Shown: piece after piece, positions 3,882 to 10,330 of the stretch
Position numbering within the stretch: the first letter of the stretch is position 1
How the letters are laid out: each line of letters starts with the position of its first letter
Assembly (NCBI GenBank): GCA_919901875.1
Contig: CAKKQG010000126.1
Coordinates: 24,363 to 40,701, forward strand
Direction of reading: 5' to 3'
Source of the DNA: Anaerolineales bacterium
GTDB lineage: Bacteria; Chloroflexota; Anaerolineae; Anaerolineales; VGOW01
Length of the DNA: 16,339 nucleotides
Made by a program: the position numbers and the translations under genes
Notes under the pieces: model-generated
Told to the model about the DNA's origin: nothing
What the model saw: the letters and a program-made list of their open reading frames with translations, nothing else
Databases searched by the model: none

Positions 3882-3900
3882 GATGAGGCAAGACCTCATC
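3882..3900 (+). other. Short hairpin in the leader of the first lipoprotein gene
   Basis: GATGAGG (3882-3888) and CCTCATC (3894-3900) form a perfect 7-bp stem with a 5-nt loop, 27 nt upstream of the lipoprotein start. There is no T-run, so it is not a terminator. It could be a leader structure or a chance hairpin. Confidence 0.4.
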
Positions 3901-3927
3901 GCATCACACATACACAAAGGAAGAAAG

Positions 3928-4836
3928 ATGATGAAACGTATTACCCTACTTTTGACTTTACTCGGTCTGCTTGTCACGGCATGTGGTCCCTCCGCTGAAG
4001 TGCAAGCAACTGTGAACGCGCAATCGAATCAGGTGGCAACAGTTAACGCGCAGATCGCCACCGTGAAAGCGCAGCCGCCTCAACAAGTGACGGTACAAGT
4101 GCCTGTACCGATGACAGTGCAAGTACCCGTCACTGTACAAGTGACGGTGCAAGTGCAAGCGACCCCTGCCGCGCAGCCGACCACCGCGCCCACTCAAGGT
4201 GGCGCCGCCACTGCCGCTAAACCCACCGCCGCGCCCGCCACCGCAGCTCCGGCGCAAGACCCACTTGCTGGCGCAAACCCCAACCCGGTATTCCGCGAAA
4301 CATTCTTAGCCTCTATTGCCAAATATTGGTTTGAAACCGAGACCAGTACCGGCAAAACAAAAATTGAGAACGAAGCCTTCACTATTATTGCCAAAGAAGT
4401 TGACAACATCACATGGACATTTGGCGGGCAAAAGTTTGGCAACACCTATACCACCGTTGTCACCCGCATCCCGGATGGCAAATGCAAAGCGTTCGACAAC
4501 TACGGGTTAATTTTCCGCTACAAGAACAACGCGAACTTTTATTTATTCGGCATCTCGTGCGACGGCACGTACCGTTTGCTCCGCCGCGTGGAAGGCGTGT
4601 TTGAAACGCTTGTGGATTTCACTAAATCCAACTCCATTAACCCATTAGGGCAACGCAACATCTTGGGCGTACGCGCCGCCGGCGATAACTTGAGCCTCTA
4701 CGTCAACGACAAATTCCTCACCACTGTAACGGATAAGCAATTTGCGGATGGCGCGATTGGTTTATACGCCGCTTCGCGCTTGACCCCCAACATGACCGTC
4801 ACCTTTGATGATGTGGAAGTGTACGAAATCAAATAA
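3928..4836 (+). CDS. Lipoprotein with VTVQVP repeat and C-terminal jelly-roll-like domain (paralogue 1)
   Basis: The gene encodes 302 aa beginning MMKRITLLL. I chose this start because it gives a standard lipoprotein signal peptide with lipobox VTAC (Cys19) and has an AAGGAAG ribosome-binding site just upstream; an ATG at 3931 is equally possible. After the signal come a Q/A/V-rich segment, a low-complexity VTVQVPVPMTVQVPVTVQ repeat (about residues 54-77) and an Ala/Pro/Thr linker (78-116). The C-terminal domain (about 119-302) has strands typical of a concanavalin/LamG or DUF1080-like jelly roll, with YGLIFR, a CDGTYRLLR strand, NILGV and LYVNDKF motifs. Two Cys (186, 211) are shared with the next gene and may form a disulphide. 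It is probably a surface-anchored binding module, perhaps for glycans; no catalytic residues were identified. The next gene is a paralogue. Confidence 0.85.
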   Translation: MMKRITLLLTLLGLLVTACGPSAEVQATVNAQSNQVATVNAQIATVKAQPPQQVTVQVPVPMTVQVPVTVQVTVQVQATPAAQPTTAPTQGGAATAAKPTAAPATAAPAQDPLAGANPNPVFRETFLASIAKYWFETETSTGKTKIENEAFTIIAKEVDNITWTFGGQKFGNTYTTVVTRIPDGKCKAFDNYGLIFRYKNNANFYLFGISCDGTYRLLRRVEGVFETLVDFTKSNSINPLGQRNILGVRAAGDNLSLYVNDKFLTTVTDKQFADGAIGLYAASRLTPNMTVTFDDVEVYEIK

Positions 4837-4852
4837 GTCTTAACTCTCGCAC

Positions 4853-4917
4853 AAAGGACGGTGGACGAAAGACGGATCAATCTTTCCGACTAAGCGTTTG
4901 TCCATCGTCCTTTTTTT
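4853..4917 (+). terminator. Rho-independent terminator-like hairpin built from a heptamer repeat
   Basis: The left arm (4853-4869, AAAGGACGGTGGACGAA) pairs with 4897-4913, with two G-U wobbles and otherwise full complementarity, and is followed by seven T (4911-4917). It lies 16 nt after the stop of the first lipoprotein. The left arm reads as 7-nt units (GGACGGT, GGACGAA, AGACGGA). The T-run ends 6 nt before the ATG of the second lipoprotein gene. Confidence 0.75.
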
Positions 4918-4923
4918 GTCTCT

Positions 4924-5838
4924 ATGTATTTGCATTTTGTTAAACGCGCCCTGCTTATTGCCGGAATGATTTTGATCGCCGCTTGCAGCCCTCGACCCAT
5001 CGTGATCGAAGTCGGGGTCGCCGCCACGCTGACCGCACTAGCCCCCACTCCGGTGGTGCCGTTAGATCGCCCGACCAGCACGCCCGTGCCGGTTGTGATG
5101 CCTGCCAGCGAAACCCCGCTCATCAAACCCACCACACTACCGCCCACACCTGCGCCCACTTTGCCAAGCGCGGCGCCGACTCAAAACATTTCTACGACAA
5201 CTGCCGCGCCCACTTCTACTTCTGCTCCTACCTCGACCACTGCGCCCACTGCCACCGCGACTGAAGCGCCCACTGCGATAAAAGTTGGCGCGTTGATCTT
5301 TGAAGAAACTTATGAGTCGCAAGGTCTTTGGGCAATCGGCGACGCGGGCGACAGTATAGTCAACATCGCCGGTGGCATTCTTACTTATACTCAAAAGAGT
5401 TCCGGCTCGTATTCGGTGCGCATCATTGGTCGTCAGGGTGATGACTTCTACGCCGAAGTCGGCGCGACCCCGCCGGGCAACTGCGGCACGCTGGATAAAT
5501 ATGGGTTGATCTTCCGCGCTCAAGATGTGGCGAACTATTACGTCTTTCAACTCGATTGCGATGGTCGTTATCGCTTGCTCCGTTTTGGAGGAAGCGCGGC
5601 GAATCCTTTGATTGATTGGACGACGTCCTCTGCCATCACACGCGGCTCACGAGCATTCAATGTATTAGGCGTACAAACCAAAGGCTCGACCATGACCTTA
5701 TTCGTCAACCAAACAAAAGTGGATACTGCCACCGACTCGGCTTACTCCAACGGACGATTCGGTTTGTGGCTTGGTTCAAACATCACCCGCGACTTCACCG
5801 TGAAGTTCAACGGAATGAAAGCGTATAAGTTACCGTAG
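4924..5838 (+). CDS. Lipoprotein with Thr/Pro linker and C-terminal jelly-roll-like domain (paralogue 2)
   Basis: The 304-aa product starts MYLHFVKRALLIAG. The signal peptide ends in lipobox IAAC (Cys21). Residues about 36-118 are a Thr/Pro/Ala/Ser-rich linker, likely a flexible spacer holding the domain away from the membrane. The C-terminal domain (about 122-304) aligns by eye with that of the upstream gene. The shared pattern is GNC/GKC, then YGLIFR, ANYYVFQLDCDGRYRLLR, N(V/I)LGV, LFVN and GRFGL; the two Cys (187, 212) are conserved. The pair therefore looks like a tandem duplication whose linkers have diverged. There is no Shine-Dalgarno, and the gene begins 6 nt after a terminator-like T-run, which leaves no room for an independent promoter outside that hairpin. 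The TAG stop falls inside a palindromic repeat. A binding role is inferred; no enzyme motif is seen. Confidence 0.85.
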   Translation: MYLHFVKRALLIAGMILIAACSPRPIVIEVGVAATLTALAPTPVVPLDRPTSTPVPVVMPASETPLIKPTTLPPTPAPTLPSAAPTQNISTTTAAPTSTSAPTSTTAPTATATEAPTAIKVGALIFEETYESQGLWAIGDAGDSIVNIAGGILTYTQKSSGSYSVRIIGRQGDDFYAEVGATPPGNCGTLDKYGLIFRAQDVANYYVFQLDCDGRYRLLRFGGSAANPLIDWTTSSAITRGSRAFNVLGVQTKGSTMTLFVNQTKVDTATDSAYSNGRFGLWLGSNITRDFTVKFNGMKAYKLP

Positions 5839-5872: not shown

Positions 5873-6685
5873 ATGCCCCTCAATCGGCTCAACGACCTCG
5901 AACCGCGCGAGTGGCTCAAGTTTCAAAAATCGTGGTTCACCCACAACCCACCGCCGCGCAAGAAAGGCGTGCTGCAGCATCCGGCGAAATTCCCCGAAAC
6001 ATTAGCCGAAGAGTTCATCCGCTTCTTCACCAAAAAAGATCAAACGGTGCTAGACCCGATGGTTGGCACGGGCAGCACGTTGATCGCCGCACTTCGATCA
6101 AGCCGCCGAAGCATCGGCATTGAGCTCAATTCCAAGTACGCGGCTATCGCTCGCGAGATCGTCGAAGAGGAGATCGGGTCGCGCGGCAAACGTCTCCCTA
6201 AAAAATATCGCCCGCAAATTTTCAACGACGACGCTTCAAATGCAGTCAACTTGAATCTTCCGTCAATTGACTACGTGATCACGTCGCCGCCGTACTGGGA
6301 TATGTTGCGAATGCGCGGCAGTGAGACACAGAAGAAACGCCAGAGCGCGGGCTTGGATGTGTTTTACTCCGACGATGCGCGTGATGTGGGCAACATCGCC
6401 GATTATGAGTCTTTCGTCGAACAGCTCTGCCGCATTTACGAATCACTTCGTCCATTACTTAAAGACAAAGCTTATCTGACGATCATCGTCAAGAACGTCA
6501 AGAAGGGCGGAAAAATTTATCCGTTGGCGTGGGACATTGCGCGGCGATTAAGCAAAACCTACACGCTCAAAGATGAAAAAATTTGGGTGCAGGACAATCA
6601 ACGTCTCGCGCCGTATGGTTTAAACAGCGCGTGGGTCAGCAACACTTTTCATCATTATTGTTTGCAGTTTCGGAAAGAAGAATGA
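5873..6685 (+). CDS. Site-specific DNA methyltransferase, SPPY type (N4-cytosine or N6-adenine)
   Basis: The 270-aa product belongs to the N6_N4 DNA methylase class, which transfers a methyl group from S-adenosylmethionine to an exocyclic amino group of a DNA base. Visible motifs are a motif-X-like HPAKFPETLAEEF (36-48), motif I DPMVGTGST (61-69), the motif II acidic residue in GIELN (Glu84), and catalytic motif IV TSPPYWDM (137-144). Later strands (AYLTIIVKNV, 200-209) resemble the rest of the fold. SPPY is most often found in N4-cytosine enzymes, but adenine specificity is not excluded. Motif order X-I-IV is the gamma-like order, although the motif sequences look like those of beta-class enzymes. 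There is no large target-recognition insert, so the recognition element should be small. The stop overlaps the next start (ATGA). Together with the nuclease gene two places downstream it may form a restriction-modification pair. Confidence 0.9.
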   Translation: MPLNRLNDLEPREWLKFQKSWFTHNPPPRKKGVLQHPAKFPETLAEEFIRFFTKKDQTVLDPMVGTGSTLIAALRSSRRSIGIELNSKYAAIAREIVEEEIGSRGKRLPKKYRPQIFNDDASNAVNLNLPSIDYVITSPPYWDMLRMRGSETQKKRQSAGLDVFYSDDARDVGNIADYESFVEQLCRIYESLRPLLKDKAYLTIIVKNVKKGGKIYPLAWDIARRLSKTYTLKDEKIWVQDNQRLAPYGLNSAWVSNTFHHYCLQFRKEE

Positions 6686-9000
6686 TTAAGAATTGGGTTG
6701 AGTCATCAAAGAAGTGGGCAACACAGTATGGGCAGATCATCGTTTGGGCAACGTTGATTTTTTTTGCGTTTGATTTGTTGTATTGGCGGATCATTCGCGG
6801 CTACACACCGCCCGTCTCGTACGTGCCGTGGCCCCCCGCCCCCGATTGGGTTGAGGCATTGTACGCTGGTCGTTGGGCGTTGCGCGTTTTGGAAGCGGCT
6901 GGCGGCATCACTTTGTTATTTTTAGAGGGGATCGATCATTCATTATCACGTTGGCTGCGGGCGACGTTGGAGAATCGAATCCGCTTATTTATGTTCGTCG
7001 GCGTCTCGGCGTTTTTGTTGGGGAGCTATTTGATTCAACCTGGCAACGTCGGTTCAGGCGATGCGATGGCGCACATTGGCACACCGTGGGCGATCCGCGA
7101 ATCGATCCGGGATGGCAACGGGTTTGCCTTCTGGTCAAACTATGCTTACTTCGGACATCCCTTTTTGCAATTCTATAGCATCGCCTATTATTATCTCGTA
7201 GCATGGATCAGTTTTCTCGCGCGCGATGTGGAAGATGCCGCCGAAGTGACTCTCTTGATATTGCATATCGCCTCGGCCTATCCCATGTATTTGTACGTGC
7301 GGCAATTAACCGGCTCACGAGTCGCCGGGGCTGCCGCCTCGCTGGCGTGGAGCGGAACATTTTATCGCTATCACTTAATTCTCATCGTCGGCAAATTATC
7401 GGTCTCACCCTTTATTGCTCTTTTGCCGTTGCAGCTGTATCTGATAGAACGACTCTCAACCGACGAACACCACAAACACAAACTCTGGGCGGCGCTTGCT
7501 CTCACCATTGGCGCAATGGTATGGACGCACAAGTTGTATGCAGCGTGGGCAATTGCTTTAGGCTGCATTTATGTTGTGACTCGTCTCTTTGATGGGACAG
7601 CAAAACATATTCCGCTTGGATTGCGGCGAGTGATTTTTGTCGTGACCGCTCATCTCGCCGGACTCGTCGTTGCTCTCTATGAGATCGTTCCAACATTCGC
7701 CGAGCAAGCACTCGTAACCATTGGCGGGATGCTAGATCGAAATACTTTTGGGTTGCCTGTAGTAAGACTCGAAAATGTTTTGATCTTCAAGGACAGTTAT
7801 TACTCCGATTGGTTCGGCGGATATGTCGGCAACTCCATTTTAAGTTTCGCGGTGCTGGCGATTTTCTTTATCGTTGTCAGCCGTTACTGGAAAAGCGCCG
7901 CGCTCGTCCTGCAATTTGCCATTGCCGTCTTTATGACATTTACGCCCGCCTACTTTCCTTCTCTCTTTGACGCGATCTTCCACACAGTACCGTTAGGAAG
8001 TCTTGCTTACGTGACCGGCACCTCGCCGGGTTTGTATTTGATGATCCTCATCGCGCCTGCTTCGGCTTTAACGGGCGTATTAGTTCATCTGGTCGGCGAA
8101 CAGTTGCGGAGCCGGGCAAATCAAGTTTCTCGCTTGATACAATCCGTGATCGGCAGCGACTTTGTGTATGAGCGTGTGGGAGTTGCGATAGGCTTGATCG
8201 TCCTCGCCGATTTAATTTCAACATCACTTTGGGTCAACATTAAATACCCTGACACCTATTCCGGAGATCGTTTGGGGCGGCAACCGATCTGGAACACGTT
8301 GAGGCAATCGGGTGACAAAACATCGCGCCTTTACGATCTACGAGGCGGCTATACCAACGCCTTCTCCGTCTCAATGTGGAGCGGACAACCGGGATTGTTG
8401 GGTCAAATCCCAGATGCGCCCAATAAAATTCATACGCTGGCTTATGAAGTCATCACCTCACTGGAGGCAGACGCGAAAGATGGACGACTGCGAAGTGAGA
8501 CTCTCAATTTGCTTTATCAACTTGATATTCGATATATCACTACCGACTCAACGGTGACTCGTTTAGATGGCGCAGAACGAGTGATGCAAACAAGTGAAGC
8601 GATCTTGTGGCAAACCAAACACGCGCCGATTATTGCTACATTGACTCCGCAGGCAAACAATGTGGTTCAAGTTAACGATGCCAACAGTGTGCCGGTTGAG
8701 ATTAAGGATTACACTCTGACGAATAATCGGGTGGAGATAAATTTTTCTTTCCCTCAACGCGCCTTTGTCCAACTCGCCTACTCCGCATATCCCTATCAGA
8801 AAGTGGTGTTAGATGGGCAAACGATTCAGGTGACGCCGACAGCCTTGGGGCTGATCGGGTTTTGGGCAGAGGGCGGCACCCACGCGGTGACGGTGACACC
8901 GGAGTTGTCGCCGCTTCGTCAATGGACATTGGCGGTGAGCGCGATCACCGTCATCCTCTTGATCGTGATGATCGTTCTGCCAATTCGCCGCATTAAGTGA
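6682..9000 (+). CDS. Large polytopic membrane protein, GT-C / PTPS-related / YfhO-like
   Basis: The gene encodes 772 aa starting MIKNWVESSKK at the ATG in the ATGA overlap with the methyltransferase; GGAAAG upstream serves as ribosome-binding site. There are about a dozen hydrophobic segments between residue 17 and 520 and one more at the C-terminus (QWTLAVSAITVILLIVMIVL). After the third comes SGDAMAHIGTPWAIRESIRD (125-144), then WSNYAYFGHPFLQFYS. This acidic-His loop is characteristic of the membrane family annotated as 6-pyruvoyl-tetrahydropterin-synthase-related, related to GT-C glycosyltransferases that use polyprenyl-linked sugars. Before the last helix is a beta-rich outer domain with AYSAYPYQKVVLDG and a FWAEGGTHAVTVTP strand, as in YfhO-type proteins. 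Likely role: transfer of a sugar to a wall, glycolipid or protein acceptor; acceptor unknown. Its tight coupling to DNA-acting neighbours is unexpected. The next gene starts 1 nt before this one ends. Confidence 0.85.
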   Translation: MIKNWVESSKKWATQYGQIIVWATLIFFAFDLLYWRIIRGYTPPVSYVPWPPAPDWVEALYAGRWALRVLEAAGGITLLFLEGIDHSLSRWLRATLENRIRLFMFVGVSAFLLGSYLIQPGNVGSGDAMAHIGTPWAIRESIRDGNGFAFWSNYAYFGHPFLQFYSIAYYYLVAWISFLARDVEDAAEVTLLILHIASAYPMYLYVRQLTGSRVAGAAASLAWSGTFYRYHLILIVGKLSVSPFIALLPLQLYLIERLSTDEHHKHKLWAALALTIGAMVWTHKLYAAWAIALGCIYVVTRLFDGTAKHIPLGLRRVIFVVTAHLAGLVVALYEIVPTFAEQALVTIGGMLDRNTFGLPVVRLENVLIFKDSYYSDWFGGYVGNSILSFAVLAIFFIVVSRYWKSAALVLQFAIAVFMTFTPAYFPSLFDAIFHTVPLGSLAYVTGTSPGLYLMILIAPASALTGVLVHLVGEQLRSRANQVSRLIQSVIGSDFVYERVGVAIGLIVLADLISTSLWVNIKYPDTYSGDRLGRQPIWNTLRQSGDKTSRLYDLRGGYTNAFSVSMWSGQPGLLGQIPDAPNKIHTLAYEVITSLEADAKDGRLRSETLNLLYQLDIRYITTDSTVTRLDGAERVMQTSEAILWQTKHAPIIATLTPQANNVVQVNDANSVPVEIKDYTLTNNRVEINFSFPQRAFVQLAYSAYPYQKVVLDGQTIQVTPTALGLIGFWAEGGTHAVTVTPELSPLRQWTLAVSAITVILLIVMIVLPIRRIK

Positions 9001-9998
9001 TGCCGCTGACCGCGTCTGATATTCTCGTTCTCCCTTACGACACACAATTCTCCATTGCCGGCGTGCAGTATGCGCGCGACTCGCTTCATTACACGCACAA
9101 TCGAATGCATTTAAAGAAGGTAGACCGTTTGCGAAAAATTGTGGCGGGCGTGGCATTTGAAATGGCGGTGCGCCGCTGGTTAGAAAACGAGTCGGTGCCG
9201 TATCAACGACTGGGCGCGACACCATTCACCGAAGTAGATAAATTTGATCTGGCGATTGGCGGCAGGCGGTGCGACTTGAAGAGTCATTTGATTTATAACC
9301 GTTTCAAGATCGCCTCATTGCACAAGGATCCATCTTGGGCGTTAGAGGCGCAGGCGTTGATCCCCGAAGATCAATTTGAGAGCAAGCGCATGGAAGAAAA
9401 CGATCTCTACATCTTCGGCTTTGTCACCGGACTTGAGGCGCGTCATTCATCTGAAACAGAAAAGGCGTTGGCAAAAAATTTGCCCGCCTTTTTAGTTTAC
9501 ACGCCGCCCGCACTCTGGTTGAACGGTCACGAATGGAAACCGTTGGGCGAGATCGCTTTGAAAACAAACGAGGCTGAACCGATCACGGTTGAAGTGGGCG
9601 GGCAAGGCGCAGATCGATCTGCGATCCATGAACGGGTTCGTCTCTTGCCGCGCACGCGCACAACAGTGAGTCACGAATATTATTCGATCTTATATTGTGC
9701 CGTCCCGCGTATACCACGCGGTGACATCGGGTTGCGTAGTTCCACGCTCAACCAGACGCACCTCATCGCGCCGAGTGATTGGGGAAATATATGGATTTAT
9801 GGTCAGCGAGTCTACGTGTGTGGCTGGATGAACAAAAGCGATTTTCGCGTGGCGAGTCATAAACTTGCGGCGGGGAGTCCGGTGAAACAATATACGCACA
9901 CCTCAACCGCCAACCGCGCGATGCCGATTCGTGATCTGCGGCAGATGAGTGAGTTGGTGGAGATTGCCAAGAGGCATATAATGACCCAAAGAGATTAG
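9000..9998 (+). CDS. PD-(D/E)XK-type nuclease candidate, possible restriction endonuclease
   Basis: The 332-aa product starts at the ATG in TGATG, sharing one base with the stop of the membrane protein; a GTG one codon earlier is possible but unnecessary. I do not recognise a named family. The N-terminal half carries the usual PD-(D/E)XK pattern: a helix with GVAFEMAVRRWLENESVPY (Glu54), a strand with FDLAIGG (Asp83), and CDLKSH (Asp92, Lys94), matching D...DxK metal-binding and catalytic residues. The second half (about 160-330) has no motif I recognise and could hold DNA recognition. There is no signal peptide or membrane helix. Being in one coupled operon with a DNA methyltransferase makes a type II-like restriction enzyme the leading interpretation; a repair or other nuclease is the alternative. 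The last two residues and the TAG stop come from a GAGATTAG repeat. Confidence 0.72.
   Translation: MPLTASDILVLPYDTQFSIAGVQYARDSLHYTHNRMHLKKVDRLRKIVAGVAFEMAVRRWLENESVPYQRLGATPFTEVDKFDLAIGGRRCDLKSHLIYNRFKIASLHKDPSWALEAQALIPEDQFESKRMEENDLYIFGFVTGLEARHSSETEKALAKNLPAFLVYTPPALWLNGHEWKPLGEIALKTNEAEPITVEVGGQGADRSAIHERVRLLPRTRTTVSHEYYSILYCAVPRIPRGDIGLRSSTLNQTHLIAPSDWGNIWIYGQRVYVCGWMNKSDFRVASHKLAAGSPVKQYTHTSTANRAMPIRDLRQMSELVEIAKRHIMTQRD
9954..9982 (+). promoter_or_regulatory. Candidate sigma-70-type promoter for the YtxH-like gene
   Basis: TTGGTG (9954-9959) and TATAAT (9977-9982) are separated by exactly 17 nt, within the 3' end of the nuclease coding region. The -10 box is perfect and the -35 box matches the first half only. 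Transcription would begin near 9989, placing the hairpin at 10000-10029 and the strong Shine-Dalgarno in the leader. Confidence 0.4.
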
Positions 9999-10289: not shown

Positions 10290-10330
10290 AAAACCCGAAG
10301 GGTCTGGCAGACCCTTCGGGTTTTAGTTTT
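10290..10330. terminator. Bidirectional Rho-independent terminator
   Basis: AAAACCCGAAGGGTCT (10290-10305) pairs with the exact complement at 10309-10324 across a GGC loop, giving a 16-bp stem. On the plus strand TTTTAGTTTTTT follows; on the minus strand the A-run at 10285-10293 becomes a T-run. It should end both the YtxH-like gene from the left and the S41 protease gene from the right. Confidence 0.92.

Follow-up and report, generated by a model that had tools for sequence, protein, structure and literature searches.

Two genes of an Anaerolineales genome, one encoding a predicted DNA methyltransferase (MT) and the other a predicted PD-(D/E)XK nuclease (NU), form a pair that is found across the order. 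The reading that we favor, with a probability of about one half, is that this pair works like a restriction-modification system and that the membrane protein gene located between the two (MP) is a lineage-specific passenger. As judged from gene order in related genomes, it is the outer pair, and not all three genes, that is conserved as a unit, and the pair is likely an old, vertically inherited, restriction-like one. MT would mark the cell's own DNA, NU would cut DNA without the MT mark, and the two would read the same site; after loss of MT, NU would be kept safe by another methyltransferase, by a changed specificity or by low activity. MP probably entered the gap between the outer genes in the sub-lineage of the window (the whole 16,339-nucleotide stretch of DNA that was analysed), and now overlaps both neighbours. 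The taming or repurposing of restriction enzymes can be followed, as in a natural experiment, in an order-wide pair whose nuclease has repeatedly outlasted this methyltransferase. NU adds an unannotated predicted nuclease family, and the case of MP indicates that overlapping genes by themselves are weak evidence of common function.

The window lies on contig C126 of a 2.63 Mb genome that is 63.67% complete. Three open reading frames were called on its plus strand, namely MT at 5873..6685 (270 aa), MP, a polytopic membrane protein, at 6682..9000 (772 aa counted from ATG), and NU at 9000..9998 (332 aa counted from ATG, with an in-frame GTG at 8997). MT and MP are joined by an ATGA stop/start overlap (6682..6685, plus strand), and MP and NU by a TGATG overlap (8998..9002, plus strand), in which one base is common to the MP stop codon TGA (8998-9000) and the NU ATG. 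The three plus-strand genes, their coordinates, both overlaps and the motifs described below had been given by a first-pass annotation of this DNA, and were all recovered when the reading frames and residues were rechecked. Base composition does not single out MP, with GC contents of 0.513, 0.508 and 0.521 for MT, MP and NU, respectively. A promoter and terminator scan of the window gave 4 promoter-like sites compared with 4.3 in shuffled sequences, i.e., no excess. Between the convergent genes 3' of NU, a hairpin of 16 base pairs, flanked by T-rich sequence on either strand (10290-10324), is likely a bidirectional terminator. Two adjacent predicted lipoproteins, LP1 and LP2 (3883-5838), have C-terminal halves that match each other in relatives, so the pair looks like a tandem duplication; they precede MT in sister genomes as well.

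MT matches the Pfam N6_N4_Mtase profile (PF01555) at E 2.4e-25 and 90.3 bits, above the cut-off of 26.7. Motif I (DPMVGTGST, residues 61-69; 6053..6079, plus strand) is near-invariant in the 56 rows of the alignment. It lies ahead of motif IV (TSPPYWDM, residues 137-144; 6281..6304, plus strand), in which TSPPYW and M are invariant in the 56 rows and D is present in 55. These two motifs are the hallmarks by which the gene had originally been called a DNA methyltransferase, and the profile match agrees with that call. MT is predicted to make N4-methylcytosine, with the TSPPYW motif, which we take to be of the N4-cytosine type, as the sole support. The same predicted modification and the same class, Anaerolineae, are shared by M.AbaBS3I (EMGBS3_12600), an N4-cytosine methyltransferase of CL500-11 with the motif GCWGC, beside which reportedly no restriction gene was recognised (PMC6329791); this enzyme was compared with MT by description only and serves as a lead. 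In two lineages the MT gene is split by inteins (L061:5803-7680 and L053:6001-7944). The L061 intein sits inside the catalytic motif, between T and SPPYW, and the L053 intein sits ahead of a QDNQ stretch; LAGLIDADG domains occur in both, and splicing domains were matched in L053.

No convincing family for NU was found in Pfam, NCBIfam, PADLOC or PDB sequences, where the NCBIfam and single-sequence PADLOC searches used only the window NU protein as query, and 0 of 99 NU relatives from a protein search carry a precomputed Pfam domain. NU belongs to a previously unnamed family of predicted nucleases, for which Pfam, NCBIfam and PADLOC offer no model. The weak single-member matches, the best being AbiEii (E 0.0015, in 1 of 41 members), were treated as chance, as was BB0689 (E 0.43). 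In the structural model of NU (pLDDT 92.3), an alpha-beta core spans about residues 1-160 and a beta-sandwich about residues 163-260, and the latter may bind DNA or a partner. The predicted active-site residues, all on the plus strand, comprise Glu54 (9159..9161) in helix 40-63, Asp83 (9246..9248) just ahead of strand 84-86, and Asp92-Leu-Lys94 (9273..9281), with Asp92 and Lys94 in strand 89-98, so that Glu, Asp and Asp-x-Lys fall in the elements expected of a PD-(D/E)XK core. They are conserved in 119 (Glu54), 115 (Asp83), 113 (Asp92) and 114 (Lys94) of 120 alignment rows, which include some copies of one locus. The first-pass annotation had called the 332-aa protein a PD-(D/E)XK nuclease and had proposed structure prediction as a check; a core-type fold is present in the model, which together with the conserved residues predicts a PD-(D/E)XK core, with all fold matches being weak. 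No Foldseek match reached E 0.001, and for the N-terminal domain many of the rows were TDP2, which to our knowledge is not a PD-(D/E)XK enzyme. NucS, MutH and Vsr, which may still be related to NU, did not appear among the matches listed by the fold searches.

A scan of GTDB genome contigs for NU confirmed 149 places, and the best 80 of the 149 were taken as loci. MT lies upstream of NU on the same strand in 59 of these 80 loci; among the 59, MT bears an intein in L053 and L061 and is cut by a contig end in L014, L051 and L079. The other 21 have no same-strand MT match, and in 6 of them the contig ends less than 1 kb upstream of NU. We also drew 251 genomes of the window's order, asking for at least 85% completeness and excluding the source genome; this draw overlaps the locus set (L002 is the G004 locus and L003 the G002 locus). 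NU was present in 110 of the 251, a count that takes in partial or weak matches (e.g., G059, G306, G313, G319, G352, G365, G390 and G519), and MT, counted as present at E <= 1e-50, in 97, with both genes in 69 genomes and MT without NU in 28. The linkage of methyltransferase and nuclease genes known from type II restriction-modification was found in 59 of the 69 genomes with both, where the two share one contig, lie on the same strand with MT first in every case (59/59), and are within 300 bp of each other in 46; they are on different contigs in the other 10. In class-wide draws, NU was found in 20 of 297 genomes and MT in 11 of 248, every one in the window's order, and a search for NU in phage, plasmid and viral-contig collections gave no match. 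Pairwise identities of MT and NU (means 0.75 and 0.53) are correlated (Pearson 0.81 over 56 rows, a value reached in 0 of 999 permutations), as shared descent alone would produce. G001, a 97% complete genome of the same genus, is without NU, MP and MT at the thresholds used.

The pair resembles type II restriction-modification systems with separate M and R genes in that a PF01555 gene directly precedes a predicted PD-(D/E)XK gene on the same strand. Unlike such systems, it is confined to one order in class-wide draws, was not found in the phages or plasmids searched, and often keeps its predicted nuclease without this MT. The common view of restriction pairs is that they are mobile and addictive, and that a cell should die when it loses the methyltransferase (PMC3488263). 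The original label of restriction-modification is only in part borne out, because NU is often kept without this MT; the linked methyltransferase-nuclease pair stands. We file MT-NU as likely working like restriction-modification, which denotes a predicted likeness and not proven membership. No paper on the pair was found in the literature searched, most subscription journals lying outside it.

MT (E 1e-50) is missing from 41 of the 110 genomes with NU, some of these NU matches being partial or weak. A looser MT search of the 41 genomes at 1e-8 found some match in 31, mostly short, and none in 10; near-full-length matches occurred in 5 genomes (32-37% identity), matches of about 200-235 residues in 5 more (29-33% identity), and the remaining ones were short. 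A tree was built from 73 NUs, of which 58 have MT upstream and 15 have none in the DNA read, 8 contig-end loci being left out. The MT label requires 9 changes on this tree, 8 of them forced by well-supported branches, compared with an average of 13.8 for shuffled labels, and loss of the linked MT recurs. The dN/dS of NU was 0.06-0.14 in six pairs without linked MT (three in one clade), 0.05-0.18 in seven pairs with MT and 0.08-0.09 in two mixed pairs, with synonymous change near saturation in several pairs. These low values indicate that NU is selected for with or without linked MT, and its active-site residues are mostly intact in rows without linked MT. In a strict type II reading, an endonuclease that lacks its methyltransferase is highly toxic (PMC3488263), and this selection strains such a reading. 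The same paper describes solitary restriction endonucleases, i.e., nuclease genes found without their methyltransferase (PMC3488263); set against these, solitary NU genes recur across the order with residues mostly kept and under purifying selection. Where NU occurs without MT, other methyltransferases may give protection, NU may serve in maintenance, or its cutting may depend on modification. Palindrome counts covered 200 kb from each of 10 genomes, of which four were NU-only, four carried both genes, one was MT-only and one had neither. AGCT, GGCC and many 6-mers were depleted in NU carriers, in a pattern of general palindrome avoidance among 8 carriers that all belong to one family, and GCWGC was mildly depleted in these 8 and not in the 2 controls; no recognition motif for MT or NU was found in this 10-genome scan.

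Repeated occurrence of NU without MT under purifying selection is not readily reconciled with toxicity of a restriction enzyme and counts against the restriction-modification reading, as do the 10 of 69 split-contig genomes, the weak fold matches and the want of a recognition motif. A tentative variant, possible but well short of even odds, is that NU is a new PD-(D/E)XK family, vertically inherited across one order, which was born in restriction, turned to house-keeping or modification-sensing, and has outlived MT many times with its active site kept. We consider it doubtful that NU is instead a core genome-maintenance nuclease of the order, active in nicking or repair and reading the methylation of new DNA, to which MT is helpful and dispensable. 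MutH, for comparison, reads Dam marks. Such a role would fit the 41 of 110 genomes with NU and without MT, the repeated loss of linked MT, the purifying selection and the mostly intact residues, as well as the phage, plasmid and viral collections in which no NU was found. However, neither a match to a repair family nor a repair gene nearby could be identified for NU, and NU is missing from 141 of the 251 order genomes and from the 97% complete G001 of the same genus, and is therefore not essential. Modification-dependent cutting in the manner of a type IV-like or BisI-like nuclease, directed against modified foreign DNA with MT as a frequent neighbour that has its own role, seems improbable: the fold match of NU to NhoI (BisI family) is weak and tied with unrelated beta-sandwich proteins, a sequence match to NhoI/BisI was looked for and none was found, and the tight MT-NU order in 59 genomes would be left unexplained.

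As for the membrane gene, MP has 10 hydropathy peaks and is probably a relative of envelope glycosyltransferases. Of 11 family members, five match PTPS_related (PF10131; E 0.01 or better) and one matches PMT_2, which makes the PTPS-related/GT-C label given to it earlier a reasonable one for the family, whereas the single Pfam match of the window MP itself is at chance level. At E 1e-4, not one of the 80 NU loci (best 80 of 149) has MP within the DNA read, some of it short contigs, so that the proposed search for MP between nuclease and methyltransferase in other genomes yielded 0 of 80. The sister genomes G002 and G004 have flanking genes that match those of the window on either side, and in them MT is followed directly by NU without MP; G002 is without the S41 gene of the shared neighbourhood. 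Counted at E 1e-30 in 251 order genomes drawn at >=70% completeness (at least 70%), the MP family is present in 14 and adjoins MT in G000 and G003. Among the other 12 genomes, MP, MT and NU are each on different contigs in G300, neither MT nor NU was seen in 8 whose best copy was read with about 1.5 kb flanks, and G522, G524 and G525 were left out. A gene resembling a short-chain dehydrogenase precedes MP in the 5 MP loci with listed reading frames, and a second MP comes next in 4 of the 5.

Tandem MPs are also found in G003 (L089:2826-7241), where MT overlaps the first MP, the second MP comes next, and the contig ends inside this second copy, before any NU position could be read. Identity between the window MP and the second G003 MP is 80-97% in 60-base bins; the two G003 MPs are 84-97% identical over the first 240 bases and mostly 41-72% beyond, and over the first 120 bases the window MP is closer to the first G003 copy. 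By this pattern, the window MP looks as though it arose through exchange between tandem copies or through collapse of an array of them. Because MP is absent from the 80 NU loci and the syntenic sisters and has relatives elsewhere, it is best read as a lineage-specific insertion, likely a passenger and not a part of the system. The first-pass annotation had offered two readings; a membrane gene inserted into a methyltransferase-nuclease operon with coupling kept agrees with these results, and a restriction or phage-defence system with an envelope component is not supported by them.

The MT/NU gap holds other genes elsewhere, including non-membrane genes such as GH15 (L025), NUDIX (L080), DUF1016/YhcG (L048) and a zinc-ribbon protein (L016), as well as a second PF01555 methyltransferase (L004:2216-3562), with a matching fragment in the same place in L005. 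This repeated uptake of varied genes again makes a passenger the best reading of MP. Membrane genes unrelated to MP were found in the gap too: L015 has a weakly GT87-like protein, L026 a similar reading frame, and L033, L048 and L065 small membrane proteins. That several inserts are membrane proteins counts against the passenger reading. It is nevertheless very unlikely that MT, MP and NU make up a real three-part defence or envelope-linked system in which MP anchors the pair or changes the envelope, since the overlaps at both junctions, the MPs directly after MT in G003 and the unrelated membrane genes in the same gap are set against the lack of MP in 80 of 80 NU loci and in G002 and G004, the non-membrane and methyltransferase inserts, and MP relatives that sit without MT or NU where read.

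In several lineages, the gene immediately preceding NU encodes a small membrane protein of some 110-120 aa (L033:7610-7945, L048:7635-7967, L065:7548-7913 and possibly L067:7657-7998). Across the scanned loci, a model built from these four proteins matched nothing beyond them and second copies of those places.
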